Source of the DNA: Siderastrea siderea
Lineage: Eukaryota > Cnidaria > Anthozoa > Scleractinia > Rhizangiidae
Assembly: GCA_964030785.1 (NCBI GenBank)
Contig: OZ034967.1
Coordinates: 47,270,033 to 47,334,032 of the forward strand
Direction of reading: 5' to 3'
DNA length: 64,000 bases
Positions 29,444-56,014 of the stretch are shown here, in pieces. Position numbers and translations under genes: made by a program. Position 1 is the stretch's first letter. Every line of letters begins with the position of its first letter. Below the pieces are notes generated by a model. That model was not told where the DNA came from. It searched no databases and was given only the letters and a program-made list of their open reading frames with translations.

Positions 29444-30700
29444 ATGAATAGTCCTATTGATATCAAATGTCTGTCAGTGAACATTAGAGGTTTGAACAAA
29501 ACACTTAAGCGTCGTTCTGTCTTTCGGTGGCTACATCATCAAAATTGTATGACACAAATAAAACCAAAGAGTTAAACTTCGCAGAGAAAATCCGAAACTT
29601 AGAAAAGACGCTTAATAGTTGGAAGAGAAGAAACTTAACACTGTACGGAAAAATAAACATTGTTAAAACTTTCGGGCTTTCAAAATTAATCTACAATGCA
29701 TCTGTTCTTGTTGTCCCAGTAAAATATATCAAAGAAATCGAGAAGTTGATTTTTGACTTTATTTGGGATGGAAAGCCTGCAAAGATAAAAAAAATCAACT
29801 ATCATTGGTGAAAAAAACACGGCGGTCTTAAAATGACTGACTTTAACATCATGAATAAAGCTTTAAAGGTTGCTTGGATACCACGTTTGCAAACCAATAC
29901 TGATGCGTCCTGGAAAATAATCCCTGAGATCGCATTAGAACATCATGGAGGACTCTCTTTTCTAACACACTGCGATTATGATATTAACTTGCTGAAACTT
30001 AACTGCCTCCCAAGCTTCTACCACGAAGTCTTAAAACATTGGCAGAGCACAAAACAGACCTTTCAGAACAACACATCGCTACACAACGAAATAATTTGGA
30101 ACAACCGCAACTTAAAAATCCAGGGTAAAACACCGTTTTACAAAAATTGGTTCGAAAAAAATATTCTACGTATTAAAGACCTTCTCCAAAATGACGGTAG
30201 TTTCCTTTCTTTTAAACAATTCTCCGAGACATTTCATCTTGAAACACCTTTTACTTTATATTTTGGATTGATCAATTCCATTCCGAATGACTGGAAAGTA
30301 AAAATTAAAAGAACTCCCCGGGAAACAGCAGAAAATGGAAATCATAAAACAAACATAATTTCTACCAAAAACGTCTACTCCGCTATGTTAAAAAAAGTTT
30401 TTTTACCCCCAACCGCTGAAAGCAAAATTTTGAGGTATGGTGTTAACCGAGCAATCTTAAACAAAGTTCACCAATTACCCTTCCAGATAAAAAATGACAT
30501 AAAGATATCAATGTTTCAATATAAACTTATTCATAATATCCTTCCAACAAAAGTTAGCCTTTTCAAAGCCAAAATATCGGATAGTGATTTATGCCCTCAA
30601 TGTCTCACTGACAGACATTCTTTAGATCACATGTTCTTACACTGCTCTTCAACTTTATTGTTTTGGAATTTATTTCAAAACTGGTGGTCCAGCAAAACTA
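29444..30700 (+). pseudogene. LINE ORF2, internally deleted, first part
   Basis: The ATG at 29444 opens the endonuclease start (KCLSVNIRGLNKTLKRRS), which breaks after about 35 codons. In other frames the sequence resumes as the C-terminal part (LNFAEKIRNLEKTLNSWKRR, a TGA at about 29810, HGGLKMTDFNIMNKALKVAW) and reaches the zf-RVT-like motif CPQCLTDRHSLDHMFLHC. It is cut at 30700 after WWSSK. Joined across the inserted transposon to 55014 the frame continues without loss. Not functional, because the RT core is absent. Confidence 0.75.
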
Positions 30701-30721
30701 CCCGTGCAAAAAAATGTCCTG
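30701..30721 (+). repeat. Left terminal inverted repeat of the 24.3-kb transposon
   Basis: CCCGTGC, seven A, TGTCCTG. It matches the reverse complement of 54991-55011 except for one position. TA precedes it at 30699-30700. Confidence 0.85.
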
Positions 30722-31010
30722 GCCAGGCCGGCCTGGGCCGGCCCTTACTGGCCCCGGCCGGCCTGGGCCAGCCCTTACTGGCCCCGGCCAGCCAGGGCCA
30801 GCCAGGGCCAGTAAAAAAAGGTTAAGTGGCCTGGCCCAGCCTGGACTTGGCTGGCCTGGGCCGGCCCATGCTGGGCAAATTTACTTTTCTTGGTGTTTCC
30901 ACTGGCCAGGGCAGACCCAGTCCAGCCCAGGCCAGCTAAGGCCAGTATACACCAAACTTCTAACAATTGCTGACCAGTCCAGGCCAGCCAGTGCCAGCCT
31001 GGGCCACAAT
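30718..31010. repeat. Left subterminal GC-rich repeat region
   Basis: About 290 bp with many copies of GGCCGGCC, GGCCTGGGCC and GGCCAGCCAGGGCC in both orientations, in sharp contrast to the AT-rich neighbourhood. The phrase GACCAGTCCAGGCCAGC occurs here (about 30972) and again in the right subterminal region (about 54830). Such arrays are the binding sites of the accessory protein in CACTA transposons. The open frames across it (PGRPGPALTG-type) are a composition effect. Confidence 0.8.
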
Positions 31011-31708
31011 GTCAAATTTTTCAAGGATACTGACATAAACCAGACAAGATGTGGCTTATGTTGGATGTGGCTGGCTACCAGTAAAAAGTTCTGTTCAATT
31101 CTTGGCCAATTTTGGAATGTTGTTTGGTAAGAAAGCTATGGAAGTTGGTTTATCACATCTCAGTGATTATGTTGATACAAAGACCAAGAATTTGAGGTCA
31201 GTTTTTTTTAATGCAAAAAGGACAGTCACTGTTTTTACAATGTTCCATTTGCATTTATTTTTCTTTTATTAAATGCCTTGTCCATTGTATTATTGTTATG
31301 CGCGGGTGAGCATTTCCGTATGGAACCCGCGCAATACAAATATTAAATTTATTTATTTAGTACATGCAAACCTATGTGGTAAAACATGCTGTGCCTACAA
31401 ATTGTATTTACACATCAGTAAAAAACCCTTCCCACATTAGGTGAGCATCGTAATTCTCAAAATGAACAAACTGTAGCTTATTTAACGAGCATTTACATTT
31501 TAATACTTAAAATTACTTAATTTTCGTATTGAATACAGAGTGTTCAATAAGACTAGTGATAGAAAAATGTAAAAAGTATTATAAGTATTTCAAAATTCTA
31601 CAAGTTTTGTTTTTTGAAACAAGATGTCAATTGCATTCCTAAGACTTCCTGAAAAACATGGATGAACAAACAAACAAATGAATAAATAATAAAAAGGAGA
31701 TTATAATA
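31011..31708. other. Untranslated part of the transposon end, with a GC-rich hairpin
   Basis: Between the subterminal repeats and the last transposase exon lies AT-rich sequence without a gene. At about 31298-31336 GCGCGGGT and ACCCGCGC flank a 22-nt AT-richer loop and are followed by AAATTTATTTATTTAG, which could be the 3' tail of an old retroelement. Confidence 0.4.
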
Positions 31709-34700
31709 TCAGTCTCTCTCAACATAATTTGGCATTAGGGAGACGTATGTCTGTCTTTCATTTCCCTCCAGGATGACGCATTTATCTAAAATCTCTGACA
31801 CCTCCACAACTGTGGTCACTGGTTCCCTAAAGAGAAATAATAACAAAAATCAAAAGTCAAAGAGATAAGGCAGATTTTGTTTTAAATCTAAAAACTAAGG
31901 ACAATCAAAAGCAATAGGGAAACGAAAGAAGTCCACATCACTGTGACCACTGTTTGTTTAAGGCTACAAAGTGAAATTTTTGTGTCCTCCTGGCTGGTTT
32001 CTAGCAATATTACTTGTTTTTCATATTCTAAGTTTACTCAAGAAAACAAGCAACACGATACACTGTAATTGTAAAATTAAACGAAACTTACCTAAGTTGA
32101 AGTTTGATTGAGATTCTACGAAGTCATTGGTCTGGAGCTAAGGAGTCAGGTGAGATATGCGCGCGAAACCAGAGCGGTCACACTTTAAAGGCGAATGATC
32201 AGGACTGTTGTAAATCAGTAGGGTGGGTAGCCCAGATGGGAGGGCACCTGACTCCTTAGCTCCAGACCAATGACTTCGTAGAATCTCAATCAAACTTCAA
32301 CTTAGGTAAGTTTCGTTTAATTTTACAATTCTACTTCGTCATTGGTCAATGTCGCTAAGGAGTCACGTGAGACTTTAAAGCGTCATGATCATGAGCAAAA
32401 ACCATGAACATCAATCTATTTAATGCAATTTAGACATCAACAGGGTGCTGTAACAAGGTACACACCACATCAAAATGTCATATCTCTTCAAGTAACATAA
32501 CAGTAACAGTAACAGTATGGTAAACAATTCTGGTTGATACAACTGTGTAAAAAGCATTTAACGGCTACTGTGCAGTAGTTCATGTCCAAAATTTGCGGCA
32601 GTGTCTTGGATAGGCTTATCATAAAACCGAGCAAAGGTGCTCTCACTACTCCAACCTGCTGCAGACAAGATAGTGTCAATAGGGACTTGTTTCCCCTTTG
32701 CAGCTGATGTGGCAGCTGCTCTTGTGCTATGTGCTTTATATACACTAGTGTCAATTCCTGCTTTGCCCATGGCATTCTTGATCCAGCGAGCAATAGTGTC
32801 AGTTGACACAGGCTTGTGAGGCTTCTGATAGCCAATCAGCAACTGGTCAGTTTCTCCTCTTAAGTGAGATGTTCTATCGATATAGGCTTGTAGATGTTGT
32901 ACAACACACAAGTTCCGGTCAGGCTCGTATGCCAAAAACTCAATTCGACCTAGGTGCTTGCCCGGTCGAGTGGTCTTCAGTGGTGTTTCAATGGTAAATA
33001 CACATTTGTTTGCAGTTAAAGTCATTGAGGTCAGAGTTAGTGCCTTCAGCGTCTGTACTCTCTGGCCAGACAAGAGGGCAAGCAACATGGTAAGCTTCCA
33101 GGACATATCGCTCAGACTTAAATCCACTCCAAGAGTCCAGGTGGCAAGTACCTTAAGGACAGAGTTTACATCCCATATTTCTTTGTATCGTGGGAGGGAA
33201 GGCCTACTTTCGAAAACGCCTTTCACAAACCTGGTGACGAGTGGATGGCTACCAAAGTGAACACTCCCTGGAAGCACAATAATAGATGACAGGGCACTAC
33301 GTGCAGTGTTAATACAGCTGTATCCTACACCAGTAGCAAAGAGGTCTCCAAGGAAATTTATGCCATCCTGTAAAGTGGCCTGAAGGGGATTAATTTTCCG
33401 TCGACAGCAGAATGATTCCCACTTCTTGTAGTAAGTTTGGTACTGGGTTGTGGTGCCCGATCTCCAGGACTGCACAATGATTCTGGAAGCTTCTGTCGAA
33501 ATTCCTTGGCTTTCAAGTGATCTCCAGACAAGTGGCACATCAGCAGCTCCAGTTTTGGATATAGAGGGTGAATCTTTTCTGGACTGCTCGGAAGAAACAG
33601 CAGTTTCTTTCTTTTGGGTAGTAGTACTGGATTGTCGACCAGCATTCTCATCAAGACAGGCCACCACGTTTGTGTTGGCCATTTCGGCACAATGATAATT
33701 CCCTGAACCTTCTCCTGTTGGATCTTCTGCAATACTCTGGAGATAAGAGAAAATGGAGGGAACATGTAAGGCACATATTGCTTCCATGATAAATGAAATG
33801 CGTCAATTGCCACAGCCCCTGGGTCAGGATGCCAGGATACATAAGGCTGAAGCTGGTGGTTTATTCTGGAAGCAAATAAGTCAATGTTGGGCTCAACCTT
33901 TGCTGCATTGATGCAGTCCCTAAAAATAGTTCTGTCTAGTGTCCACTCAAGTTGTGAGTGAGACCGTCTTGATTGTTTATCAGCTTCCACATTCTCTACA
34001 CCAGGGATATGGACAGCTGTCAGCCAAATATTTCTTTGGGCACACCATAACCAAATTTCTTTGGCTACGTCATTTCTTTTTTCAGAGCTACTAGTACCCA
34101 TATGGTTAACATCAGACAGGGCAGTCATATTATCCACCATGACCTTCACATGCTGCCCATTAATGATAGTTGAAAAAGATTTAAGAGCCAAATATATGGC
34201 TAGGAGCTCTAAATAGTTTATGTGGTTTCTGGCTTCCTCTGCGGTCCAGTGTCCACCTGTACTGGTATCATGTAGGGCACAGCCCCAGCCAGTGGATGAG
34301 GCATCGGTTGACTTGACAACAGTAGGCTCCCCATGACTAATGATATTGTAACTGGCTTCAAGGTGTGTGTTCCACCACAATAATTCTGAACCAGCTTTGT
34401 CTGATACTACCATACAAGCATCATAATCACCCTTGCTATATCTTAAGGCAAGAGTTTTCTCCCTCTCTAACTGACGGAAATAAAGCGGGCCATACATGAC
34501 ACCTGGGAAACTAGATACCATATACCCAAGGGCCCTTGAAACCTCCCGTATAGTGGTTTCTTTGGCCTTGATAAGCTTGGTACAAATTGATTTGAGCTTG
34601 TCAACTTTTTCATTGGTCAAATAAATTTTCATCTGGACTGAGTCCAAGACAAACCCCAAAAATACTAATTTTTGTGTAGGGATAAAAACTGACTTTTTGA

Positions 34701-37700
34701 GGGTGAAGAATGAAACCCAATGAGAGGAACATTTTCACAGTGTCTAGAACATTAGCTAGGCATTCCTCATAACTTCCACCTTGTAGGTATGAGTCATCAG
34801 TATACGGTGAGTTTATATGCCCAAGTTGTCTCAAAACTGGACAGAAAGCTAAACCATTAGGAAAACAGGTAAACTGATACAATTTACCACCCCATTTAAA
34901 CTTAAGGTACTTCTGGTCTGAAACCGCAATAGGAACACTGTAATAAGCATCCTTGAGGTCAACAGAGGCCATATAGCAGTTAGGGGTAATAAGACTTATT
35001 ACACTTTGAAGTGTATCCATTTTAAAGTGGTTGTATTGCACATGTTTATTTAGGTTTTTAAGATTCAGGATCATTCTGTGTGATCCATCTTTTTTGGGTC
35101 GTACAAAAACAGAAGAGATAAACTCCCCTGGTTCATGACTGGTTTCAACAACAACTGCCTTCTTAAGCAGGTTTGCAACCTCTTTGGAAATAATAGCATT
35201 TTCTTCTGCACTAAAACATTTCACTGCAGGGGGGCGTGTTTGGCAAGGCTTAGTGTCAAATTCAATGTACTGTCCTGACACCATTTGAAGAATCTCAGTG
35301 TCTGAGGTGATTCTTTGCCAACAATGAACAAATTGTGCCAGCCTACCGCTTTTGAAGCAACATGTTTGTGTAACAAGGTAAGCTATAAGTGTAGGAATAA
35401 AGCCTTCAAATTGGGTTACCTGTAACGTGTGGAGCTTTGTCATGATGTCATCGGCAGTATTTATTTCTTGCTGGTGTCCTCCTTTTTCTTCCAGGTTTTC
35501 TGGGGTTTCCATCTGGACTGGAAATGGCCCTTGCCTAAAAAAGGCTGGTCCTGTTTTTGGCGATAAGGAGGTTTGGTGAAAGATTTGTTGGTGCTATTGT
35601 GCACTGCTGTATGACTAATTCGGTTTGAGGCTCGAATTGCCGTAAGCTGCGACTGAAGCTCGTCGCCAAATAGCAAGTTGGTTACCGGCGTTTGCGAAGA
35701 GCACAGCGAGCTGTATTCCTTGTTAAGGTTGGGTTTAATAGCTTCCTGTCTACGAAGCGAGAGCTCGTAATTGGTGTGACCCAACAGGGCAATGGCATCA
35801 ATTTGTGCTGTGACTAATGCGCCCGTGTCGAGCTTGCCACCTTGCGTGCTCTGGCCTCGAAAATCCATGAGCTTCTGGGTTGATTGTGCAATAATGGCTC
35901 CAACCCTCACTATCATGTTCTGAATAGCGGACAATCTGAGGTCCTGCTTTTTCCCATGATGAGTTAATTTTCCCCAAATCTCTGGGTTCACTTTGGGGGC
36001 AACAAGCTTCTCGCAGTTTTCAGGGCGATCATATTTCTCGACCGTCTCTTTGACCTTGTTCTCACTCAGTTTCGAAGCCCATCTCTTATTGATGATATCT
36101 GCAAGTTGCTTAGATATTGGGCTGCTCACTTTATCATCTTTCGAGAAGTCGAGGGCCAATTTCTTTAAAAGATCGTCTTCGCCTTCATTGATGCAGGAGT
36201 CCTGCGTTTTGGCGGCCGACGTTTTGGCGCCTTCAGAGTCGTTCTCAGCGTTGGTTGCAAGAAGCTCTATTACGTCCGAATCATCGCTGTCACCGCCAGT
36301 TTCAACAGCATCACCGGCATCAATTCTAGGTTTCTTTGTTTCCCCATTTAAAGGGTCTTAAGTTCCCAGAGCGAGCGTCTCGCTTCGCTGGGCGCTGCTT
36401 CGACAAAGAAGCGAAAGCTTCGCCCATGCCGGACAATGAACCCGCCATGTGATCCATGTTTTGGTTCAACTTACTGAGTACACTCAATAGCGAGTCGCTA
36501 TTGTCGAGCTCAGGATCCTCTAGAAGTTCGTCTTCGGCTTCCTCAGTGGGATTTTCGTTCGTTATTGCGTCGGGATCTTCTGGATTGTTCGTTTTCGCCA
36601 TGATGAAAATTTCTACGTGCAACTACTCCAAAGTTCGCTTGCAAGTGACCGCTCTGGTTTCGCGCGCATATCTCACGTGACTCCTTAGCGACATTGACCA
36701 ATGACGAAGTAGAATCATATGGTTTAATGTTCTAAACAGAAAAAACTCACCCTCTGGGTATTTCCACTGCATACAATCTTGTGCAGTATGTGGGGAGTGG
36801 GCTTCTGATCACCTTTAATTCAGTTATGCATGCGTACCCCACTTGTCGCAGCAGCACAAAGTACTGGATTATTCCAAACTTGCCATCAAAGTACACCACC
36901 GTGCAGTTTCGTTTTGCCATCCTCGTGTACTCTCTGCTGAAATATGCCATGTCAGCCACTACTGCCCTTCCAAACTTTTCAACTGGTACATCACTATCCA
37001 GTGAAACACCTGATTTTTTGAAAACTTCTTTCAGCTTTGCATTTGGTTGAGAGGTTGTCAGCTTGCCTCCAATTTCACAATTTGTTACAGTCACAGTAAC
37101 TTTAAATGCTCTTAAAAACAAAAAAAGAAAGCATGAATAACACTACTGCTCATTTCAATAACACAGGAACTCTGAAGTTCAAGACAACCAACAGTTGCAT
37201 TTTTCACTGTCACTAATTATCGTAATGGGTCTTTTGAAGTTCAGCTTTACAGGGTCAAAAGGTCAAGTTTGTCCACTATGTTTGGAGGATTTCCATCCAT
37301 CTTGTCAATTTATATTTTTCACCCTTAGAAAATTAATAATAATTACTTACCAATAATCACAAGTGTAATGAGTTTACAATACTTGTTATTGTATTTCTAC
37401 AAGCATAGTAATCAGATTCTAGCATAGTATAAGCATAGTACTCAGATTCTAGAATGAACAGTTCTACTTACTGTCGTTTGCTGGAAACCATCTTGATTAC
37501 GAAGTCTGTCAAATCACTATGGTCCTGAGTACTGGCCATACATTTGGACACCTCAAACGAAAGCTGACGTTGGATGCAGATGCTCCAAAGAACCTTTTTT
37601 TTTAACAAAAGAAACCAGAAATGTTTTGCAACATTTTAGTGAGACTAATAAAACTATTCACTTCGAATGTATTTCAAAAGGGCTTTCATCAGTTAAGGAA

Positions 37701-40700
37701 CAATCTTACTATAACTCAAGAATGATTGCTTGCAACACAGTAATTTTTTTAAAAATAAATATTACCTGTTTTCCTATCATCCCTGTCCCATGGATGAACT
37801 TTGTCAAGCTTCCATTCATCCCTTCAAAACCAAAACATGACCATGCCCGCAATGGTCCCCAACACTTCACAAACTTCGCCAGATGCATCAAGTTGTGATG
37901 GTTTATTCTGCATCTGCCTTCACCTAGAATTTGGAAAAAAATGTAGTTTAGATTATTCTCCTCCTGAAGTCAATCATTTTATCTTATGGAATATTGGCTG
38001 AATTAGCAGCATCTTAAGGTGGCTCCCTAGCGTTTCTACAAAATTGAGTATTCGAACTGGCAAACTGGCAACGGTTACAAAAGAAACTCTAATTCTGTTG
38101 TCTTGCAATCTTTGTTCCTGAGATTTGCCAGTAAGGTTACTAACATAAATTACTCTTATTTTTCAGTTTTTGCTTCTTAGGCATAGGCCATTGTCATGGC
38201 AACAAAGCGTCTAAGGAATGACGGATATTTACCATTAATTCATTTTATTCTTTAATATTTTGATTTTGCCTCAGTGAATTTTTGTTAAACTTTCCAGTCT
38301 TGTGAAAATGATTTTTACTAACATTTTGCAGGGGAAAAAATATGGGGTTGTTCAGACAGTTTCACTGATATCACGAGATTTCTTATTTTTAACCATTAAA
38401 CTGAATTGCTCTGACAGAATTTTTTCAAAACATAGTATGTGCAAAATTCAACAAAAATACTATTTTAGGCTAAAGCAAGTATTATGATTGCCAGTGTATG
38501 ACAAATGATGGCTTACCATACAAAGGTGCATACTGAGCATAAAAAAGGGTCAAGTACTGCTCTGCCATCATCAAATCACTCTGTGATATGGATTCTCCAA
38601 GAAGGATGTGTATGCCTTCCACCAGCAAAGCAAAGTGCTCTAAATAAATGTCTGGCAGAATACCATCAAGGCAGGGCAAGGCATAAAACAGAAGCCAGCT
38701 TCGTAATTCAGATGCTGTAACCCAAAATTTCAGAGAAAAAGTCAAACATAAGCAAGTAATGCTTAAATTGCATGAACAAATAGGTTATGACAATGAGGTC
38801 TTGAGAATTAGCTACCAAAAGCACAGGATCAGGACAGTGAAAAGTGTCATATCATATCATGACTGAGGTGTTATTTGAGACAAAAAAAGTGGATGTAATC
38901 AGAGCTGAGATTTAGATAGTCAGCTACACATAAGTTAAAACTCAAGATGGGTGTTTTTAATCTTTGAGTTGCCAGTCATCTTGACCAAAGTTGCTAGCCA
39001 CAATACTGCTTATCACAGGCATTTGCAATAAAGAGGTTGTCATATTTAACAAGGGGGCTATTGGTTATTATTTTTAACATAAAAATATATGGACATGACA
39101 TGTCCAATGTACCTTTCATGTGGTTTCGATTTGAGTTTAAGCTGCGAGGCAAACGGCTGATGAAATCAGGTGGCCGCATTTTTAGTAGTCTTGAGTCTAC
39201 TTCACCAATCTATTAAAAGTGTATAGGAGAGCAACCTTTAATCAGTGATCTATAATAGTAACTGGAATGTTTAAGATACATGTATGCACCAACCAAAGAC
39301 ATTAATAATTACTGGAATAAAAGTCAAGTCTACTGTTTCTTTTCCTTTTAAGATTTTCTCTCAATGTGTTCAACATTGAACTTAATAGTTAACGTAAATA
39401 TTATTTCCCAGTTTCTTATAGACTACTTTAATAGGTACTACAGAAATATTAAATGAAAAGCCAGAGTTTCCATAATTTTTGTTTTCTAATTTAAACTTAC
39501 CAAGTGGCCAATGAAATAACCCTCATCCTTGTTTTTCGCACCAAACCAAAGTGACAGCAGATCTTTTGTTACTCCAAGTAACACTCCATGCATATAGTCT
39601 GGAGGAAAGCCCAGTGCCAAGTCAAACAGTTCGTCCAGGATAATGAAGGGTGAGAATCCCAGTATTCCTTTAACATGCTGGAATATGAAAATAAAAACTT
39701 AGCTTAACATACAAGTGTACAAAGTTATGAGCACTACACAACAACCAGCTCAAAATTACCACTGTTATTCAAGAAAAAACTAAAAGTGGTCACATTATTC
39801 ATCCAAGAAGAACAAGAACAGATAACTTAATTCCTTGCATTCAGTTTTTATTTGTTTGTTTTTTGATGCAAGCTTTGTTCTTTTCTCATGAGTTCATCAA
39901 ACACCAGAAAAAAAAATAGCTACAGTATTTAACCTTTCTGTCCAATATGGCAAAATTTCCTGATTTCTTTACCTGACAGTCACAACAAGCATTAAACTTG
40001 TTTGCAGACAGTTTTCATACAAGAATAATCCTCGAAATGAACCTTTATTTTCTAATAAGCCGGTACATAGGATGTACTTTCTTGTTAACTACCGGTAATA
40101 ACAGTAATGGACATAAATTCCCAGAATGGCATCCTGAATGAGTTTTATTTGAAATCTACTTCAATGTTTTTACCTTTCCCATTGTTATGGCTTGGCTTGC
40201 GTTTTCCAAGATGCTCTGATGAGTTCTTTGTTTCTCATTTGGATTGTACGCATAATGTCTGGCCCATCCTTTCCCAGATCGTACATGCTGGCCTCTTGCC
40301 TCACAGGTGCTACATCCACATTCACCATTGTGCTGGTGCATATTGACATTTAATGCTTTAGCCTGCAGATCCATGCTGCTTACCAAGACAGCTCCTTTGG
40401 CCTGTACAACAGCTCCTGATGATGTAGTCACACCAATTCCTTAAAAAAATTATGAAGGGAAAATACTTCCACAGTAAGTGCATGGTCAGATGGTTTGCAG
40501 AAGGCAGAAGTGCAGTATTTCCACAAAGATAAAAAAGAAACTTAAACGTATCAGGTATAAATGAAGAGACCAAGACCATGTACACGTAATCTTTTTGCAA
40601 ACAATTATATCAGTTACAATAATATTAATAATTACAACAAATATAACACTAGGACTGAGTTAGGACTGAGTGGAGTCCAATTTGGTCTGTAATCATACGA

Positions 40701-46700: not shown

Positions 46701-48370
46701 ACGAGGGACTGATCGCGTCGAGTCGTATATGCCCCACTTGCGGATCGGAAATGAACTGGGTTGAACGTGGGGACAGGTCAGATGGCTACGTCTGGGAGTG
46801 TCGAAAACAAATCAATGGTAAACGGCATAGATGTGAGAGAAGTATTAGAGAGGGAAGTTGGTTTGAGAAAGCGAACTTAACAATTGAAGAAGTGTTGAAA
46901 TTTACCTACTGGTGGTGTCAGGACCTGAGGCAGTGGCAGATAAAACAGCAGCTTGGGCTTGGTTCGCACACAGCCGTTGACTGGGACATGTTTTGCCGCG
47001 AAGTGTGTGAGGTTGCGTTGTTCGATGGAAGGGAAAAAATTGGAGGCCCAGGAAAGTTGGTTCAGATAGACGAAAGCAAAATTGGAAAGAGGAAATATCA
47101 TCGTGGTCATGTCGTCGAGGGTCAGTGGGTTTTCGGCGGCATCGAAGAGGATTCACGCAAATGCTTTATCGCCACAGTAGAAGACCGCTCGGAAAAAACT
47201 TTGCTTAACCTCATAAAAGAATGGATCGAGCCAGGCACGACAATTGTTTCGGATTGCTGGAAGGGATACGTGAACCTTTCCAAACATGGTTATATCCATA
47301 AGACAGTGAACCATTCCGTTGAGTTCGTTAACGATGAGGGTTTTCACACCAACAAGATCGAAGGACATTGGCGACAGATGAAGGCAAGGCTTCCGACGCA
47401 CGGTCGTAAAAAGGAACACTACTCTTCATACTTAGCGGAATTCAAATGGAGATATATCCACAGTGGTGAAGATTTGTGGAAGGCGTTTTTGAAGGACATT
47501 AAGGAAATTTACAAATTTGAATAATTAGAACATTAAACTGCCTGTAAATATGTGCCGTTTCTTTCTACTTAAGAAAAGTGTTGGAATGAATTTGAAATGT
47601 TGAGATTTAAGTTTGAGTTATTGCATGTATGGAATATTATAGGTCACTGTATTGATGACGCCAGTGTATTTGAATTAGATTGTAATTTTCTGAAAGCATC
47701 TTTGGAGCAACTGAAACGGAGTTACTGAAACGGACTGTATTGCAATAAAGTTAATTGCTTGAATTAAAAATACCATGTAGTTATTGTCTGGTTACGGGGA
47801 AAGAACGAGGTATATTCATGTGTAGCGCGCTTTCTTCGGTTCATGGATTAAAGAACGAGGTATATTCATGTGTAGCGCGCTTTCTTCGGTTCATGGATTA
47901 AAGAACGAGGTATATTCATGTGTAGCGCGCTTTCTTCGGCTCGTGGATTAAAGAACGAGGTATATTCATGTGTAGCGCGCTTTCTTCGGCTCATGGATTA
48001 AAGAACGAGGTTTGAACGAAGTATATTCATGAGGACCCTGGGAACGAGATTGGTGGCCACGTAGCTGCGTAGCCACTATTTTAGAGTATAGCTGCGTAGC
48101 CGCGTAGCCACTATTAGCCACTATTATTGGTGGCCACGTAGCTGCGTAGCCGCATAGCCACTATTTTAGAGGTATAGCTTTGGAGTGGGAGGGTATTCTG
48201 CAGTTAAGCCCTTTCTCTTCGCTATCTCCCGATTCGCCGCGATAAGCACCTCTGCGATATTTGTTATTTCTCCGTTCGTGTGTCACTCCTTCCTCAAAAC
48301 TAATGCCTTCATCTTTCTTCAATGAATAAGCTCCTCTTTTTCGAGATGAACCTGTATTCGTGGAGGACAT
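31709..48370 (-). CDS. tnp2/CACTA-like transposase, 13 coding segments, split by nested elements
   Basis: Minus-strand segments: 48370-48207, 43019-42341, 42059-41959, 41628-41394, 41167-41055, 40439-40174, 39677-39501, 39209-39113, 38714-38517, 37923-37766, 37593-37472, 37110-36751 and 31826-31709. From 43019 to the stop every GT/AG junction keeps phase, giving over 800 aa in total. Order: basic head (RRGAYRG, KRGPYQG), acidic D/S-rich stretch, ZnF-like CENCFLLFGETEVVCQNC, catalytic-type region (FNTDGVPIFKSSGVGVWPIY, VVWGLWQGRTKP, GECGCSTC, PPDYMHGVLLGVTKDLLSLW), then a tail ending SLMPNYVERD. It should cut and join the element ends. A Merlin-type element splits the N-terminal coding part, so this copy may be dead even though the remaining exons are intact. 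A DIRS sits in the last intron. Confidence 0.8.
32068..32330. repeat. Perfect 84-bp inverted repeat, 95-bp spacer, at the DIRS end
   Basis: 32068-32151 and 32247-32330 are exact reverse complements over 84 bp by my reading. The spacer contains ATATGCGCGCGAAACCAGAG, which is repeated inverted at 36655-36674 near the other DIRS end. This is probably the internal complementary region that lets the DIRS RNA form a circular intermediate. Confidence 0.75.
32558..33560 (-). CDS. DIRS tyrosine recombinase
   Basis: The open frame ending at 32558 holds a complete phage-integrase-type fold: an N-terminal SAM-like part (SWRSGTTTQYQTYYKKWESF) and a catalytic domain with the conserved residues in order, R in SGQRVQTLKAL, H-x-x-R in AHSTRAAATSAA, W in AAGWSSESTF and the nucleophile-position Y in FARFYDKP. 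It integrates the circular DIRS DNA without target duplication. The frame extends upstream to 33787, overlapping the end of the RNase H ORF in another frame; the functional start lies in that overlap. No lesion seen. Confidence 0.8.
33358..34659 (-). CDS. DIRS RNase H region (RT C-terminal part)
   Basis: The frame carries the RT connection and RNase H: LGFVLDSVQMKIYLT, then the RNase H core with D in STDASSTGWG, E in INYLELLAIYLAL, D in VMVDNMTALS and D in VEADKQSR. A DIRS-typical tail follows (DLFASRINHQLQPYVSWHPD, YMFPPFSLISRVL). It is separated from the RT ORF (34610-35512) by a one-base shift near 34690-34700 in an AAAAAG run. RNase H removes RNA from the cDNA hybrid. Confidence 0.75.
   Translation of the reverse strand: MGFVLDSVQMKIYLTNEKVDKLKSICTKLIKAKETTIREVSRALGYMVSSFPGVMYGPLYFRQLEREKTLALRYSKGDYDACMVVSDKAGSELLWWNTHLEASYNIISHGEPTVVKSTDASSTGWGCALHDTSTGGHWTAEEARNHINYLELLAIYLALKSFSTIINGQHVKVMVDNMTALSDVNHMGTSSSEKRNDVAKEIWLWCAQRNIWLTAVHIPGVENVEADKQSRRSHSQLEWTLDRTIFRDCINAAKVEPNIDLFASRINHQLQPYVSWHPDPGAVAIDAFHLSWKQYVPYMFPPFSLISRVLQKIQQEKVQGIIIVPKWPTQTWWPVLMRMLVDNPVLLPKRKKLLFLPSSPEKIHPLYPKLELLMCHLSGDHLKAKEFRQKLPESLCSPGDRAPQPSTKLTTRSGNHSAVDGKLIPFRPLYRMA
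34610..35512 (-). pseudogene. DIRS reverse transcriptase, damaged in the palm
   Basis: This is a DIRS-type RT: FSSVFVRPKK-like FISSVFVRPKKDGSHRMILN, MASVDLKDAYYSVPI (first catalytic D) and YTDDSYLQGG (the YxDD box). Between FPNGLAFCP and VLRQLGHINS about nine residues usual in this family appear to be missing. The ORF ends out of frame with the RNase H part after a one-base shift near 34695. Both point to an inactive copy, although the recombinase frame is whole. It starts overlapping the end of the gag-like ORF. Confidence 0.7.
35461..36601 (-). pseudogene. DIRS gag-like protein with one frameshift
   Basis: The start is the ATG at 36601 (MAKTNNPEDPDAITNENP), an acidic head. The frame stops after KWGNKET (about 36359) and continues one base over from KPRIDAGDAVETGG to the stop at 35461. 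The second part is basic and helical (ADIINKRWASKLSENKVKET) and ends in a lysine- and tryptophan-rich tail (SRWKPQKTWKKK). The function is presumably RNA packaging. No zinc knuckle is seen. Confidence 0.6.
40651..40780. repeat. Foldback element in a transposase intron
   Basis: The left arm (GTCCAATTTGGTCTGTAATC, then ACGAGTGATTAACAAA) and the right arm (TTTGTTTAATCACGAGTATG, then ATTACAGGCTGAATTGGA) are imperfect reverse complements meeting at about 40720. It lies in the intron between transposase segments 41167-41055 and 40439-40174. Non-coding. Confidence 0.5.
40996..41040. repeat. (AAT)n microsatellite
   Basis: Irregular AATAATAAT repeats of about 45 bp in a transposase intron. Confidence 0.7.
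43062..43620. repeat. GGCTACGC 8-bp tandem array (left subterminal repeat of the Merlin-type element)
   Basis: An 8-bp unit GGCTACGC with variants GGCTAAGT, AGCTACGC and GGCTACTC, nearly 70 copies, with a higher-order pattern of about 110-120 bp near 43086, 43203 and 43305. The array degrades toward 43620. A short inverted version is at 48048-48165. Confidence 0.8.
44105..45823 (-). CDS. DUF3987-like P-loop ATPase, two exons, inside the Merlin-type element
   Basis: Exon 1 is 45823-44717 (donor GAG|GTAACC) and exon 2 is 44413-44105 (acceptor CAG); they join in frame to about 471 aa. Residues 25-95 carry the leader typical of DUF3987 (PDPFEQIFPAAVWNFI), then Walker A in FVGPPTTGKSQA, a central helicase-like region (LVSGEIYDVLFKLL, QVLCQLFSGE, ILGATQIPFAARLVAL) and, in exon 2, a winged-helix-like end (NDLISPTMDETKTQ, then GPLVTFRAFKQSGP). 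DUF3987 proteins are known mainly from phages, plasmids and other mobile DNA and resemble replicative helicase/primase partners. Its role here is unknown; a replication or transposition helper is an inference. Confidence 0.65.
46574..47524 (+). CDS. Merlin (ISXO2/IS1595-like) DDE transposase
   Basis: The frame is open from 46574 and the first in-frame ATG is at 46751, but the upstream part (LWDRDFTLSWLKDEGLIASS, then RICPTCG) clearly belongs to the protein, so an upstream exon or other start is likely. Features: a zinc-ribbon-like CPTCGSEMNWVER...WECRK, then the DDE domain with D in LVQIDESKIGKRKYHRG, D in IVSDCWKGYVNL and E in HTNKIEGHWRQMKARLP. This is the core of IS1595/ISXO2 transposases, called Merlin in animals. 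No internal stop. AATAAA at 47744-47749 follows the TAA stop. It should cut and paste the surrounding 5.2-kb element. Confidence 0.8.
   Translation, partial: STQCGDTKGSYGRDEKKENFTSYESLLRNYLWDRDFTLSWLKDEGLIASSRICPTCGSEMNWVERGDRSDGYVWECRKQINGKRHRCERSIREGSWFEKANLTIEEVLKFTYWWCQDLRQWQIKQQLGLGSHTAVDWDMFCREVCEVALFDGREKIGGPGKLVQIDESKIGKRKYHRGHVVEGQWVFGGIEEDSRKCFIATVEDRSEKTLLNLIKEWIEPGTTIVSDCWKGYVNLSKHGYIHKTVNHSVEFVNDEGFHTNKIEGHWRQMKARLPTHGRKKEHYSSYLAEFKWRYIHSGEDLWKAFLKDIKEIYKFE
47801..48031. repeat. Four 50-bp tandem repeats plus a partial one
   Basis: Units start AAGAACGAGGTATATTCATG at 47801, 47851, 47901 and 47951, with a shortened fifth from 48001. They are almost identical (TTCATGG/CTCGTGG variants). 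Located between the Merlin transposase and the right end of its element. Confidence 0.85.
48048..48206. repeat. Right terminal region of the Merlin-type element
   Basis: Contains GTAGCTGCGTAGCC units, the inverse of the 8-bp array at 43062-43620, separated by ACTATTTTAGAG-type spacers, and ends in GGGTATTCTGCAGTTA. It pairs with the left end at 43020. Confidence 0.65.
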
Positions 48371-48670
48371 TATCGATGGATTTCACAACGCTACAACCGT
48401 CATGTTGGTTTCATCGCGGTTCAAAGTGCCTCCAGGGATTTACAGATGTCTTTTCCAGTCTCTCGCGGTTGTTCGTCCCATTGTTTTGTATGATGTATGG
48501 CAAACAACAGCCAATCGGAGAGGCAGATTGAATGTTTACGCGTCCTTTCATTAGCTTTGGCGCTATATTTCGATTTATCGCACCTAAAGAATACTTCGAG
48601 ATCTTACTGAAGCACGTGGAAATTTTTTAATACTTCTGTTAGCCGTAAAAAGACGTATTCTTCAATCAGT
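48371..48670. promoter_or_regulatory. Divergent promoter region between transposase and BEN genes
   Basis: Only 300 bp separate the two start codons, which point away from each other, so a shared bidirectional promoter is likely. No clear TATA box or motif was identified. The call rests on layout only. Confidence 0.4.
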
Positions 48671-51600
48671 ATGTCATCTGTTAAGCGATCGAAACACTGC
48701 AAAGGTAAGCTTGCGTATAACAACGAGCTCTTGGTTTCCTTATGCCCCAGGGGGGGTACTCCGGACTTCAAGTGACGGGGATGATCGAAGGATTTTTTTG
48801 GGTTTGAAATTTTCGATTCCGGGATTTTTTTGGGTATGAAGATTTGGCAGGTATTTTTTTGGGTGGCTTGATTTAAGTATGGATTTTTTTGGGTATTCAA
48901 AATGATCTGAAGATTCATGGTAGTGCCCATGTATCCGGGCCGCGTAGTTCCGCAAATAAAGTACAACCAAACTTGTTCTTGCCCGGGTAGTCTTGTTTTG
49001 TTTAGAGTTGTCATTCATAATGTTGTTGTTGACACAGAAGATGTTCTTGGGTGTCCCTAGTGTTGTTAGAATGACTACCAGATAAGGAAAGGATAAAATC
49101 ATCTGGTATGATGAATTATAACCAAATACAAACATTCAATTTCTAGTGGGTTTTTTTCGTGTTAGATCATTTAATCCTTTCTGGAAATTAAGGCTCGGAA
49201 TTTCGGCATGGGATTTTTTTGGGGTAAATTTTTGGTCCAGGGATTTTTTTGGGTTTTGTTGGAAGCCCTAGGGATTTTTTTGGGTATTGATTTTTGCCCC
49301 CATTCGATCATCCCCGTCACTTGAAACTCGGAGTACCCCCCCTGGGCCTTATGCCTACTTTGTAGACGTGCTCATGACTCATCTCCTTCATAAATTTTCT
49401 CACCTCTGCAGTACCCAGATATTTCCTTGTTGCTTTCAATGAAGATGACACTGTTAAGTTTTGTATCGTGGAAAAAAACAGAGTCCGTTTGCCAGAAAGC
49501 CAGGATTGCAATGTGGGATCTCAGGTGAAAGTCAAGTGGCAGGATAACAGTGAATACACAGGCAAAGTTTTTGGAATGAGCGGTACGTTAAGTGTGAAAC
49601 TTTTTTCATGTGTATTTTAATATATTTGAAGATTGGCTTGGAAAACTAAAGGTAAACTGCGCTCAAACTATTTTGATCTGCTAGCTAAAAATTGTCGATA
49701 AGCTCGGTGGTTTTCTAACTTAAATAGGCATCTACAGTGTAGATTACAAATGAGTTAGAAAAGCATTTTAAAACTCTTTGATATTTAAATCAGGGAAAAC
49801 CCTCATTTATTGGGCCTTTAATTTATTGGCGATCCAATGTTTGGCAGTGTTTGTTTTGTTTTGCTTTTCTGACACAAAAGGATGACTCGTGTATTTATTC
49901 TTTAAGATGACAGAAATGAACTTGACAGACTGCAAGGGACACTGTGTAACTATCAGAGCTTCTCCGAGAAGGCTTCCAATGAAAATATGAAATCTGACGA
50001 CTTGGTGGTGTCAGAGTCATCACAAGATATCTCAGTCAAGGAATTTGAAGTGGATGAAGCAAAGGAGGTGAGTTCATCCTTTACAATACTCTGCGGCAGT
50101 GTTAAATAACTCAATCAAAATGTTTTGAAAGACCTCTGCGAGCAGGGACGTTTTCTTGGGAAGGGTACATACATGGAGTTCACTGGTTTGCCCACTTGTC
50201 TCTCTGAAATGGAATGTTCGATACTAAATATGCATTCAACAAAGTCCCAATCAGCTGTATCAATGTTGAAAAATCTCTACCTTGGAGGAAGTAGTAAGGA
50301 ATCTGTAGACTGCTCACAATTTTAATTAGAGCTCTTGGCTTTAAATTCACAGGTTATTGATAAGTTCAAAGATAAGAATCTTGACTCCCAGTTATCTGAT
50401 TATGAAAAGGAGCGCCAAAAGAACATCCAAAAAAACAATGAAGTCCTCGAAAAGCTTGGCTTGATGGTGGTAAGTGACATTTATTTCTTATAACTCCTGA
50501 TCCCATAAGCAAAAAAGTTGCCTTCAGTTGATAGGATACAGTATGACATTTTACTTCACAATATGGATTTCCCTAAACTTACTATGTTTCATCAAGTTTG
50601 AACAAAGAAAATCAGAAGAATGACAGTGGTTAAATTTCCAACACCTAAAATTTCACTAAAAAGGAAACTATGATGTACGTTGTTATATGACATGGCATGT
50701 TTAATAAATAACATAAATAAAAGGAAAGCCACAGTGTAACCAAGGAAACCACAAGCACTAGGATTATTTTTGAAATGCTCACTGTACTGGAAGCAGTCAG
50801 ACAGGAGATCAAACCAGAAGAAAAAAAACTGCAAACCAAAAAATTAAAAAATAACTCCTGTTACAGCCTGCAGTTTATTCATCACGTTTCTTTCGTTGCA
50901 CAATAAACATTACGTTAATAATTCCTGGCCAGTGTTCTTGGATTTCCTAGTGCTGTAAATGCTAACTCCAGTTTTTATTCCCAGCCAAAGCCAGATAAAG
51001 AAAACAAAAGAGCAAGGAAAACTGAGAAGAAAAAAGTAAGTATTGAGTACATGTTTTTTTCTCCTAAAATTTCTTGAGGGGAAGATGAATTTTGCTAACT
51101 GTTTTTGCTTTTTTTTAATAGAATCAGTCAAATTCATCCACTTTGGTGAAAGAAGCTTTTGAGGATGCAAGCACCAAAGGTAGATACTTCATTTTCGATA
51201 ACTTAGCCATCAGGTTACACATATTTGTGTTACTACAGTAGAAACTTGCTAACTCGAACTTCTTCCTGTCTTCAACCCTATAGAGTTTCCACAGTTTCAC
51301 TTGGTTGTTAAAAAAACAAAGAGCTGTGTGCTTCTCCTGGTGGTTTGAGTTATCAAGGGTCTGCTGTTATAACTGTTAAATTAAGGATGTCATATTTAAA
51401 TTGATGATGACTTAAAAAACTTTCAATGATGCATAGAATTTGCTACTGATCTGACAATGACAGATTCTCTGAATTTTAAAAGAAGGACTGCTGTTCAAAA
51501 TTGTCCATCAGTGAATGTTTTTAGTAAACAAATAAGGGGGTTAGTTTCTAAAGAAACTGTGGTACTGCATTGGTGGAGACATGAAATACAAAATTTTGGA

Positions 51601-54035
51601 TTTATTAACTGAGTTGAGGTAAATTGGCCACCATAGAGGGATTGAAAGCTGACGTTTCAAGCGTCAGCCCATCATCAGAGCAAATCAACGAATTGATTTG
51701 TGGGTTGCACTTGGTTTATATAGAGAGTGGTGGTGGAGCTATGCTATTGGTAGGAACATGGCAACGTGAAAAACAAGAATAAATTAGTTGAATGAAAAGC
51801 ACTTTTTATTGATACCGTAGGGATTAAGTGTGCTGATTTGAAAAATGAATTTTTGTTGGTAGCCCTATGTTTCTTGTCTGATTAAAGTTTTAACCTGTTA
51901 ACTAGCGCACTATATACATATTAGTACTCATTTAATAATTATTTATAGCCTGTGTACAGCCGCCCACTCTCCTCAAGAAAAATCTTGGCTATTGGTTAGC
52001 ATGGTGATTGAAACCATGTTTGTCTTGCTAAATAGTTGCAGTGTAGTACTAAATGTGTTTAATCTCTTTTTGTATCCTAAGAACTTCAACAGCAAAAGAA
52101 AAAAAGAAAACTTCAGTCAAATTCCTCTGAAAATTTAGATGCTGCTAAGAAACCAAAGGTAACATAGACTTTTCATCACAATTATTAATGGTTATTATGG
52201 TATGTGAAAAATCAGCATTAAGACATTTCAACAAAACCTCCATCCTGTTGAATAGAGTTGCTTGTCGTTATAAATGAATTGATGGTTTGATACAATAAAA
52301 AAATACATGAACTGGTCAGTGAAGTTTTTTGCTTGTATTTTGTTCATGTGCTTTGATGTTTAAGGTTTCAATATATATTTTTTCTTTACAGAAAAGCACC
52401 CATGTGGAACAGGCAACAAAACTTCAGGCGACATTGGGAAACTTGAAGAGGGCCATTCTTCAAGAGACCCAACCACAGAAGGAAGTAGTCCTAATTGATC
52501 AGGAATCAGATGAATCATTTGTAGAAAGCTCATCACAATCGCTTGAATTTCCCTGTATTTTTCACCCTCGGCAACAATCTACTCCCATGAGTAAGGATCA
52601 GAGAAGAGGAGATATCAGTTCTGACCAATACCACTACCTGCACTCACTGATCAAAGATCAAGGAGAAAAATTGAAGGCAATGGAAACAGAAATGGTCAGA
52701 CTGAAAGCAGAGATTAAGAAGCTTAAGGCATGTACTTTTTTATTTTAATGTAGTTTTTAAGATGACCAAACAGATACCTCTTGCTCGAACCAGGCGTTAT
52801 TAAGGAATCATAGTTACTGGTAGAAATTTTAAAATCTTTACTTGGAAAGCCGTGCTTTACATAAAAATCATGCTTTGAAGTGTAACTGACAGAATTCATT
52901 TCTAGGTGTGATAATGCTTACCTGTGATCCAGATTTAACCCTTTAAGCCCTGATATAAAAATGCATATTCTCATTACTGATCTCCATACATTTCTTATGA
53001 AACTAGTAAGGAGAATTTGTATAAATATCAAGACATCACATCCTCAGTGATCACTTCCATTGGGGCTTAGGGCTTAAAGGTTTAATGTAGAGGAAGGTTT
53101 ATTGTCCATCTAAGAATGCGTGTAAGTGGTAGAGATTCAAACACCTATTTCATATTTCTTTTATAGCATGAAAAATCTGCTGTCGAATTACCAGTTTCAC
53201 CCAAAAGTGATCAAGCAGCGGGAAAGACTGAGATGGACAGGGACACCAGCCTGCAACAGTCAGTAACTAAAATGGAGGAATCCACCAGTGGACTTCCTGT
53301 TGACAAGGTAAAACAGTATGACATTTTCAAACTTAGTTACCTGTATTACACACCAGTGCAGGCGATTTCAAGAGTTTTTTGAAAAGTTTTCGAGTTTTTC
53401 GCCAAGGCACAGTTTGAAGTCCACTTATAAACACAAGCGGCGCACCTAGGATGTAACGCGGACAAGAAAACATCGAGAATTTTCTCCTAATTGGAGTCCA
53501 GCATTTTGATTGTTGTTATTGGTATGTAAAACTGTACCTGATAACCCTATGTATTTTGCACTCTAGGTTACCTTCCTTCAGTCATCTATGGCGCATTATG
53601 TCACAAGGATGGAAGTAGTCCGCTTCCTAATGACCCAAATATTCGCAGAGGAAGAGCTTAAGACATGCAGTGTCTGGGGCAAATGTGTGAACAAAAACAA
53701 GGCTCCCAAGCCAATGCTTCCAGCAGCAAAGAGATCCCTTTTGTTTAGTAAGTGAACCTGTGAAGCTTGTTACCTTATTTGCTCAATCAAATTTCTGTTT
53801 TCAAAAGAAAATTTATGGATTACTTCAGTTAGTCAATCTAAGTTATTTTTACGGTAAGCTCTCCATTTTAGCCAACCTGTCATACATAAATTTATGCATT
53901 CAACATTAATGTCATTTTGTTTTCTTATTTGTAGGACTTCTTAAAGAACGGTTCCCAGGTGAACTAAATACTGACCAGGACTGTGGTTTGGCGGCGAACA
54001 GCTTCTTAAAGCGGTTACCTGGGAGAACACAATGA
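48671..54035 (+). CDS. BEN-domain coiled-coil protein, 11 exons, second gene of the 24.3-kb transposon
   Basis: Exons 48671-48704, 49412-49582, 49907-50067, 50353-50469, 50985-51035, 51122-51179, 52082-52158, 52392-52727, 53167-53307, 53567-53747 and 53935-54035 join in phase to about 475 aa. Layout: start MSSVKRSKHCK; a Tudor-like small barrel (RYFLVAFNEDDTVKF, then VKVKWQDNSEYTGKV); a helical YEKERQKNIQKNNEVLEKLG stretch; lysine-rich NLS-like linkers; a coiled coil (EKLKAMETEMVRLKAEIKKL); a C-terminal BEN domain (HYVTRMEVVRFLMTQIFAEE, CSVWGKC, LLFRLLKERFPGEL). The intron after 52727 has a GC donor. AATAAA at 54082. BEN domains bind DNA, so this is probably the element's accessory DNA-binding protein, divergent from the transposase 300 bp away. 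No lesion seen. Confidence 0.75.
48746..49346. mobile_element. 601-bp MITE in BEN-gene intron 1, 8-bp duplication
   Basis: Inverted repeats of about 44 bp start CCCAGGGGGGGTACTCCG at 48746 and match the reverse complement ending at 49346. CCTTATGC is duplicated on both sides (48738-48745 and 49347-49354). The interior has many GGGATTTTTTTGGGT phrases. The 8-bp duplication suggests a hAT-like parent. Non-coding. Confidence 0.8.
51540..51800 (-). mobile_element. Penelope-like 5' fragment in a BEN-gene intron
   Basis: The segment with GAGTTGAGGTAAATTGGCCA and the adjoining hammerhead-like motif (51648-51681) resembles the 5' repeat region of Penelope-like elements. No protein is left. Borders are approximate. 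Confidence 0.45.
51648..51681 (-). ncRNA. Minimal hammerhead ribozyme motif
   Basis: On the minus strand the order is GCT, CTGATGA, a short stem-loop (GGC-TGAC-GCT), GAAAC, GTC, AGC: the conserved core boxes, a stem II hairpin, the cleavage triplet GTC and a closing GCT/AGC helix I. This matches the small type I hammerheads known in Penelope-like retroelements. Activity as a monomer would be weak because helix III is very short. Confidence 0.6.
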
Positions 54036-54663
54036 AGAACTGACATGTACCAAAAAAGTGATTTTCTTTTTAAAGTGTTTTAATAAATATGTTTGTGCTC
54101 AAACAAGACCAGAGGATAATAGGACATTGGTATTGATGCTGAGCCTCCATTGTGGTCCAGTTGGATATTTTTTTGACTTGGCCTTTTCATGAAATGAGAG
54201 ATTTTTCATCCACGCATTTTCATAATTACTGGTGTATATAAACTTATTTTTAATTTGTAAATACTGAAAATAAGTGGAAGGGTTGTTAGGGTTCAATTAT
54301 TTTGTTTAAAAGAAGTAACATTGATTTTGTTTTTAAAAGCTTCGTTTCTCCACTTGTAGGATTGTGCTCACTGCATAAAGTCTTAATATTCTTTGCATTG
54401 TTTAAAGATCTTGACAAAATTTTTTACTCAGTGGAAGGAGTTTGAGTTTTGATTTGTTTCTAAGAGAACTTTAGAATGAAAATAAAAAAAAGTAAGAAAG
54501 AGACCACAGTTTCTGTGTTCTAATTTGCTTCACAGTTGTCAACAAAAACGATGAAATCACCCAACTTGAGCCAGCCACGTTCTGGTATTGACCCAAGACT
54601 GTCAAATTGTTCAGGGACATGACCAAGTAATAAAAGCCCCTCCACATATTTTAGAAAGGGGAG
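54036..54663. other. 3' UTR and AT-rich spacer
   Basis: AATAAA at 54082-54087 probably ends the BEN transcript. No further gene up to the subterminal repeats. Confidence 0.5.
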
Positions 54664-54990
54664 GGCCAGAATGGGCCGGACTGGGCCGGCCTGTTCCACG
54701 AAATGCCCCCAAATTCATAGTAGTGACTAGAGGCCAGAATGGGCCGGACTGGGCCGGCCCGTTCCACGAAATGCCCCCAAATTCATAGTAGTGACTAGAG
54801 GCCAGTCTGGGCCGGCCCGGGCTGGACATGACCAGTCCAGGCCAGCTGAATATACCGTAAATAATGTTTGTGATGTGGGCTGGCCTGGGCCACTCATTAG
54901 TATTTTTCGGCATTAGCATTTTTGAAAAATGCTAATTTTGGGCCGGCCTGGGCCGGCCCAGTTGGGCCGGACAGGGCTGGCCAGGGCCGG
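54664..54990. repeat. Right subterminal GC-rich repeat region
   Basis: Many GGGCCGGCC, GGGCCGGACTGGGCC and GGCCTGGGCC motifs in AT-rich surroundings. It includes a 68-bp unit starting GGCCAGAATGGGCCGGACTG repeated in tandem at 54664 and 54732. It mirrors the left subterminal region (30718-31010). Confidence 0.8.
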
Positions 54991-55011
54991 CAGGACACTT
55001 TTTTGCACGGG
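54991..55011 (-). repeat. Right terminal inverted repeat of the 24.3-kb transposon
   Basis: CAGGACA, C, TTTTTT, GCACGGG, the inverse of 30701-30721 with one mismatch, followed by TA at 55012-55013. Confidence 0.85.
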
Positions 55012-55013
55012 TA

Positions 55014-55582: not shown

Positions 55583-56014
55583 TCATGAGTACCAGAATTT
55601 AATTTTTTTTTCAAATCCAAGTAGATTATTTAAATTCGATTGACTAAGATCTAAACTATAATTTATTTTTATTGTAGTATATAATGTATTTCGATCAAAT
55701 GTTATATTGATAGGATTATTATCATTAATCTGGCTATTTATATAACTATCCAATTCATCAAAATCCCAGATACCTTCTGGAATCATAATTGTTTTATAAT
55801 TATGCCCATTATCACTACTATATAATATTGTTTGGTTATTATATTTACTTGTAATGTTAAACCATGTAAAAGACATATGTATTATTCGATTTAATCCTAT
55901 AGAATATTCAGAATTATTATCTAATATAATGTTATTTTCCAAATAAATAGTAAAATCTTCTGGTTGATCTTCAGAATTATGTGACGATAATATGATTTCA
56001 CGATCTATACTCAT
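55583..56014 (-). CDS. AT-rich gene of a virus-like or large mobile element, function unknown
   Basis: 143 codons from ATG at 56014, with AT-biased codon use unlike the neighbouring transposons. The protein is rich in N, I, D and S with likely beta strands and no transmembrane segment. It ends (FWYS, stop) close to the LINE target site and could be truncated. I recognise a general likeness to short structural-type proteins of Polinton-like or other DNA-virus-derived elements but cannot name the family. It is divergent from the gene at 63294, with the Kolobok element inserted in the gap between them. Confidence 0.4.
   Translation of the reverse strand: MSIDREIILSSHNSEDQPEDFTIYLENNIILDNNSEYSIGLNRIIHMSFTWFNITSKYNNQTILYSSDNGHNYKTIMIPEGIWDFDELDSYINSQINDNNPINITFDRNTLYTTIKINYSLDLSQSNLNNLLGFEKKIKFWYS

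Follow-up and report, generated by a model that had tools for sequence, protein, structure and literature searches.

The element and its two genes

The stretch of DNA analyzed here, hereafter the window, comprises 64,000 nucleotides of the genome of the scleractinian Siderastrea siderea (assembly GCA_964030785.1, contig OZ034967.1, positions 47,270,033 to 47,334,032 of the forward strand) and harbors a DNA transposon with two spliced genes in divergent orientation, which respectively encode a tnp2-like transposase on the minus strand and a BEN-domain protein on the plus strand (Table 1). This architecture had been put forward in an earlier note made from the sequence of the window alone, and the ends that it proposed, 21-bp terminal inverted repeats (TIRs) with one mismatch, proved to be exact at 30701 and 55011: the left end begins with CCCGTGCAAAAAAATGTCCTG, the reverse complement of the right end aligns with it over 21 bp with a single mismatch, and the termini read CCCGTGC..GCACGGG. 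The two start codons lie 300 bp apart in the window and approximately 270 bp apart in a diverged relative of the element, the copy C5 described below.

The exons of both genes were placed by eye and by comparison with relatives, and are predicted models. The transposase gene is predicted to consist of 12 exons beginning at 48370, 11 of which join in the window to 832 amino acids with no stop codon, the first codon of this frame including bases of an insert; exon 12 is likewise open. The claim that most transposase exons keep phase stands to this extent, but exon 1 is broken by a 5.2-kb Merlin-type insert. Both domains named in the earlier note were recovered above cut-off by profile searches in the window as well as in C5, namely Transposase_21 (PF02992; 29.4 and 29.2 bits, cut-off 28.6) and BEN (PF10523; 33.1 and 38.3 bits, gathering cut-off 23.2). 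The transposase has 243 homologues in the protein database, the best of which shows 47% identity. Proteins of the tnp2 group are DDE transposases, and D309, D397 and E556, which going by the tnp2 motifs presumably form the catalytic triad, are invariant along with C416 and C419 in an alignment of 20 sequences (the window protein and 19 of the 120 listed homologues). H492 is also invariant in this alignment, in which no H(3-4)H motif stood out clearly between the CxxC and E556.

The BEN gene keeps phase through all of its exons, as had been claimed, with no internal stop; nine of its introns are of the GT-AG type and one is of the GC-AG type, which would require a GC donor. Its product was seen by eye to contain a coiled-coil-like stretch, and a sequence search of the PDB with it returned two weak matches, one to a coiled-coil tag, neither of which is meaningful. 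A predicted fold of the N-terminal 56 residues, which are encoded by one exon, contained four strands with a mean predicted local distance difference test score of 59.5 and a predicted template-modeling score of 0.38, and was not used; a Tudor-like match of the N-terminus (E 0.057) fell below the cut-off and is not claimed.

Boundaries and target-site duplication

The element is inserted in the reading frame of a long interspersed nuclear element (LINE; zf-RVT), which stays open once both flanks are rejoined with a single TA. With the rejoined 300-bp flanks as query, 40 LINE copies of the genome align over the junction with 91-97% identity (40 of 92 candidates scored), and in all six copies that were read the junction is continuous with a single TA, making them empty sites. 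A 3-bp difference approximately 87 bp from the junction is common to these six, and one copy (L048) has 4 additional bases approximately 15 bp from it. The open frame and the matching LINE copies therefore show directly both the boundaries of the element and its 2-bp target-site duplication (TSD).

Searches of the 831-Mb genome recovered at least 47 matches to the left 300 bp and at least 54 to the right 372 bp, and a chance pairing of the two ends is excluded because these termini are found again at dozens of genomic places. Flanks were compared in 23 copies (the 20 fetched first, two further copies, C1 and C5, and the window element; several longer end pairs were left out), among which equal 2-bp flanks were found in 17 and equal 3-bp flanks in none. 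Three copies (L022-L024) have common flanks and resemble a single insertion that was duplicated along with the neighboring DNA; if they are treated as one, the proportion is 16 of 21. The copies without equal 2-bp flanks are C1, L024, L025, L028, L030 and L038. In these 23 copies, which were chosen by end similarity, CCC is found at the left end in 22 and GGG at the right end in all. The equal flanks read TA, TG, TT, GA, CT, AT, GG or AA; hence the TSD of the family is 2 bp of varied sequence and TA is not a rule. The TA duplication of the earlier note accordingly holds for the window element, with its seamless empty sites, but not as a property of the family, and TA-specific duplication was rejected.

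Further copies and linkage of the two genes

The most informative of the further copies is C5, a diverged relative of 13,748 bp with TA on both sides, which shows the same two-gene arrangement and lacks the inserts of the window element, the kind of copy for which the earlier note had suggested a search. All 12 transposase exons are present in it in order, as are 10 of the 11 BEN exons, seven of them clear (2, 3, 4, 7, 8, 10, 11) and three weak but in place (1, 6, 9), with no stops inside the exon matches. A second copy, C1, is 17.7 kb in length, lacks the DIRS-like insert and is collinear with the window at 92-97% identity; its transposase has lost exons 5-8 and part of exon 9 and contains stops, and its BEN gene has one stop and lost pieces. 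In a third, L019 (also C6), the BEN region, in which a stop and a 1-bp gap have since arisen, is whole between the same ends, and the transposase is a stub, a deletion having fused exon 1 to exon 12. We also observed a two-gene copy, by match positions only, at C7:51668408-51689513, where the initial exons of the BEN gene, like exon 1 of the transposase, are matched twice, which suggests an internal duplication.

A search with the BEN protein returned 39 genome matches at eight places, five of which have several exons: the window, C1, C5, C6 (L019) and C7. All five have both a left and a right end, the assignment in C7 resting on match positions only, and the five loci with transposase matches of at least 57% identity are the same five places. 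The other three are a copy without transposase (L026), a match at C8:40549849 that is less than 3 kb from a match to the left end, no right end being listed there, and a lone 43-residue match at C5:27214086. The recurrence of both genes between these ends indicates that the BEN gene and the transposase gene travel as one unit.

The earlier note had allowed that the TIRs might belong to a short miniature inverted-repeat transposable element (MITE) family, with the genes occurring elsewhere without these ends; the ends would then bracket two unrelated genes by chance. Short copies that share the TIRs do exist and outnumber the others among the copies fetched: of the first 20, 19, with lengths of 2.2-8.1 kb, have no transposase match. 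The same bracket is nevertheless repeated in C1, C5, L019 and C7, and the seamless empty site surrounds the whole 24.3 kb; we therefore assign this explanation a negligible probability, and the two-gene copy C5 refutes it. Among the 19 transposase-less copies the last BEN exon is found near one end in 17, with 44-68% protein identity, the exceptions being L027 and L035. Two of the short copies, L032 and L033, occupy different sites with separate TSDs and show 100% identity over their 6198 bp; the transposition machinery therefore acted very recently, and the pair is a sign of very recent local movement. These two copies (C4:43129700-43136700 and C4:43068400-43075400) are approximately 61 kb apart in opposite orientation, and neither contains a transposase.

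Selection on the two genes

Between the window element and C5 the ratio of nonsynonymous to synonymous divergence (dN/dS) is 0.125 for the transposase (813 codons) and 0.156 for the BEN gene (438 codons), or 0.125 for the latter if only its seven clear exons are used (360 codons). Judging from these ratios, both genes are under purifying selection between the families of the window element and C5.

Subterminal repeats

The GC-rich subterminal arrays noted earlier at both ends are borne out by the distribution of the palindrome GGCCGGCC, each occurrence of which contains a CpG. It is found eight times in the two 300-bp ends of the window element, a number reached by none of 500 dinucleotide shuffles, and is absent from 11.4 kb of the interior. 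In all six copies tested it occurs 5-8 times per 600 terminal bases, as against shuffle means of 0.04-0.11, and the counted interiors of the window element and C5 have none. A 25-bp palindrome, ATTAGCATTTTTGAAAAATGCTAAT, is also found once in each of eight copies tested (with at most 3 mismatches), two of which are identical, across diverged subfamilies, and always starts 72-126 bp from one end only, which is the right end in the orientation of the window. Both the GGCCGGCC arrays and the 25-bp palindrome are candidate binding sites.

Inserts and neighboring sequence

The 24.3-kb length that had been given for the two-gene element between its TIRs is inflated by inserts, the uninterrupted relative C5 measuring 13.75 kb. 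The insert in transposase intron 11, which we take to be of the DIRS type, carries a tyrosine recombinase, a reverse transcriptase and an RNase H, and is absent from C1 and C5. The 5195-bp insert in exon 1, presumably of the Merlin type, contains an open reading frame (ORF) for an IS1595-like transposase (316 amino acids) and one for a DUF3987 protein (428 amino acids). It is absent from L019 and C5, and C1 bears a different insert close to that place, so that an origin as part of the element was rejected. GCGGCTAC repeats occur inside this insert. The presence of a DUF3987 gene in an element of the Merlin type looks unusual; fragments nearly identical to the DUF3987 part are found elsewhere in the genome, one of them (C13:25018630-25019515) between end matches of the transposon family. 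The insert in C1 (L039-L040, approximately C1:44495419-44503137) is 7.7 kb long with TIR-like ends, lies in transposase exon 1 approximately 20 bp from the position of the Merlin-type insert of the window, and has a 712-residue ORF with a C-terminal PHD-like zinc finger, as read by eye. Beyond the right end of the element, a minus-strand ORF at 55583-56077 (164 amino acids) has no Pfam match and is suggestive of the virus-like capsid-gene pieces of animal genomes.

Table 1. Positions in the window of the transposon, its genes, repeats and inserts
Feature	Position	Strand	Remarks
DNA transposon	30701..55011		24.3 kb including inserts
Left TIR, 21 bp	30701..30721	+	TA at 30699-30700 directly before
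Left GC-rich subterminal array	30701..31010		With GGCCGGCC palindromes
Transposase exon 12 and stop codon	31709..31826	-	Same exon read in C1 and C5
DIRS-like retroelement insert, ~4.6 kb	32070..36714	-	In transposase intron 11; limits accurate to within a few bases
Transposase exons 11 to 1 (3' part of exon 1)	36751..43015	-
Transposase exons 1-5	43015-42341 (exon 1, 3' part), 42053-41959, 41628-41394, 41167-41055, 40439-40174	-
Transposase exons 6-11	39677-39501, 39209-39113, 38714-38517, 37923-37766, 37593-37472, 37110-36751	-
Merlin-type insert, 5195 bp	43016..48210		Interrupts transposase exon 1; 8-bp TSD CTTTCTCT
Transposase exon 1, 5' part	48211..48370	-	ATG at 48370
Interval between divergent start codons, 300 bp	48371..48670		Candidate bidirectional promoter
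BEN-domain gene	48671..54035	+	11 exons, 475 amino acids
BEN exons 1-6	48671-48704, 49412-49582, 49907-50067, 50353-50469, 50985-51035, 51122-51179	+
BEN exons 7-11	52082-52158, 52392-52727, 53167-53307, 53567-53747, 53935-54035	+
~600-bp insert	48747..49346		Within the first BEN intron; missing in L019 and C1
Right GC-rich subterminal array	54640..55011
25-bp palindrome ATTAGCATTTTTGAAAAATGCTAAT	54912..54936
Right TIR	54991..55011	-	TA at 55012-55013 directly after

Relationship to known transposons

The termini of the element are neither CACTA nor CAC..GTG and its TSD is not 3 bp, as would be expected of a plant CACTA/EnSpm element, nor is its TSD restricted to TA as in ESTA; the arrangement D, D, E with CxxC between the second D and the E, characteristic of the CMCT group, is present. 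To our knowledge no BEN domain occurs in the DNA-binding protein of plant CACTA elements.

CCC termini together with a 2-bp duplication have been proposed as diagnostic of the TRC elements of animals (PMC1636069). As the element combines CCC termini, a 2-bp TSD and Transposase_21, it fits a TRC-type animal relative of CACTA rather than a CACTA-ended element. These three features and spliced products are shared with SmTRC1 of Schistosoma mansoni and the TRCs of Tribolium and Aedes (PMC1636069). However, SmTRC1 is only about 4.7 kb in length, and its other products arise by alternative splicing, showed no similarity to known proteins that could be detected and were only presumed to act like TnpA (PMC1636069), whereas the window element has a separate divergent gene with a recognizable BEN domain. 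With the plant CACTA elements (En/Spm, Tgmt*) it shares the tnp2 transposase, the subterminal repeat arrays and a second element-encoded protein, TnpA beside TnpD in the plant systems, but those have CACTA termini, a 3-bp TSD in Tgmt* in place of 2 bp, and a DNA-binding protein derived by splicing from the same gene in place of separate divergent genes (PMC2613891). ESTA, Plavaka and other CMCT lineages similarly have a DDE transposase with CxxC between the second D and the E, and some have 2-bp TSDs; in contrast, the ESTA and Plavaka elements described are fungal, their extra gene encodes a TET/JBP dioxygenase, and the ESTA TSD is TA as opposed to the varied duplications found here (PMC12730594). 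The BEN protein resembles BANP-like proteins in combining its coiled-coil stretch, here recognized by eye only, with a BEN domain; those are host chromatin proteins (PMC11472053), whereas for the window protein the database search detected no relative. Among the open-access papers listed, which were judged by title and opening of the abstract, none was found that places a BEN gene in such an animal transposon; Repbase lay outside the search.

Proposed role of the BEN protein and alternatives

We propose that the element is probably a cut-and-paste transposon of the TRC kind, whose functional unit is the divergent pair of a tnp2/DDE transposase and a BEN protein acting as a TnpA-like helper. 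The transposase would cut at the CCCGTGC ends, and the BEN protein would bind the subterminal GGCCGGCC arrays as an oligomer, bring the ends together and regulate transcription, in the manner of TnpA in plant Spm; both proteins may act in trans on the copies without genes. Spm requires both TnpD and TnpA, the latter binding subterminal repeats (PMC2613891, PMC1636069), and unmethylated CpG motifs are preferred by BANP and BEND3, in the case of BANP via oligomers (PMC11472053). A more specific version, which we advance tentatively and hold to be somewhat unlikely, is that the BEN protein binds CpG, corresponds in animals to TnpA and reads the methylation state of the GGCCGGCC arrays, thereby licensing synapsis and excision. 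If true, a protein encoded by the element would link its mobility to the DNA methylation of the host.

It is also conceivable, though we judge it unlikely, that the BEN gene encodes a regulator of the transposon with no need for it in cutting or synapsis, either a repressor or an anti-silencing factor that protects the CpG-rich ends, or the promoter common to both genes, from methylation. BEN proteins are mostly chromatin-related in function (PMC11472053), the BEN gene is more constrained than the transposase among the young copies, and L019, with a whole BEN region and no transposase body, is like a repressor-making derivative. Little separates such a regulator from the helper that we favor, since TnpA of plants is required for transposition and also has a regulatory function (PMC1636069, PMC2613891). 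Moreover, the BEN gene of L019 now contains a stop and a 1-bp gap.

Several observations weigh against the helper proposal or the evidence on which it draws. The Transposase_21 score of the window exceeds its cut-off only narrowly, and the BEN protein, whole or as the BEN region alone, found no homologue among 5.8 billion proteins. In C5 no match to BEN exon 5 was found, and those to exons 1, 6 and 9 are weak; the BEN dS between the window and C5 is 1.58, which is near saturation. The transposases of the window and C1 give a dN/dS of 1.08, that is, no constraint, and constraint on BEN among the young copies is weak: 0.54 for window-L019, 0.40 for window-C1 and 0.46 for L019-C1 (Fisher p of 0.21, 0.02 and 0.06, respectively). 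BEN exon and intron divergence differs in window-L019 (p 0.019) but not in window-C1 (p 0.55). The young-copy ratios are compatible with decay after insertion and give no support of their own. Furthermore, none of the 120 listed transposase homologues (of 243) has a BEN domain in its Pfam column, and none of the 16 PF10523 matches in the genome lies within 100 kb of the 46 listed tnp2 positions (listed from 60 matches, in a search that scored 54 of 571 candidates). The latter is a weak test, the PF10523 scan having proceeded exon by exon and having missed the BEN domains of the window's own family too. As no BEN match lies near the other listed tnp2 positions, transposases of this type may not generally require a BEN gene.

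This last observation would suit a captured host gene carried as a passenger, and transposons do capture genes. We nevertheless regard a passenger as highly improbable: no host copy was found in the genome, where every multi-exon place among the eight with BEN matches (39 in all) has both ends, and dN/dS is low across two transposon families with a fixed divergent arrangement.

For the helper proposal the broader significance lies in the animal elements. A TnpA-like partner of an animal relative was presumed in 2006 and was unrecognizable by sequence (PMC1636069). The conserved second gene described here, with a domain of DNA-binding type, is a candidate for this unrecognized helper, and because it is conserved in a family with recently moved copies, the helper question becomes directly testable. 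The element could also be a source of BEN-domain host genes, or the reverse.

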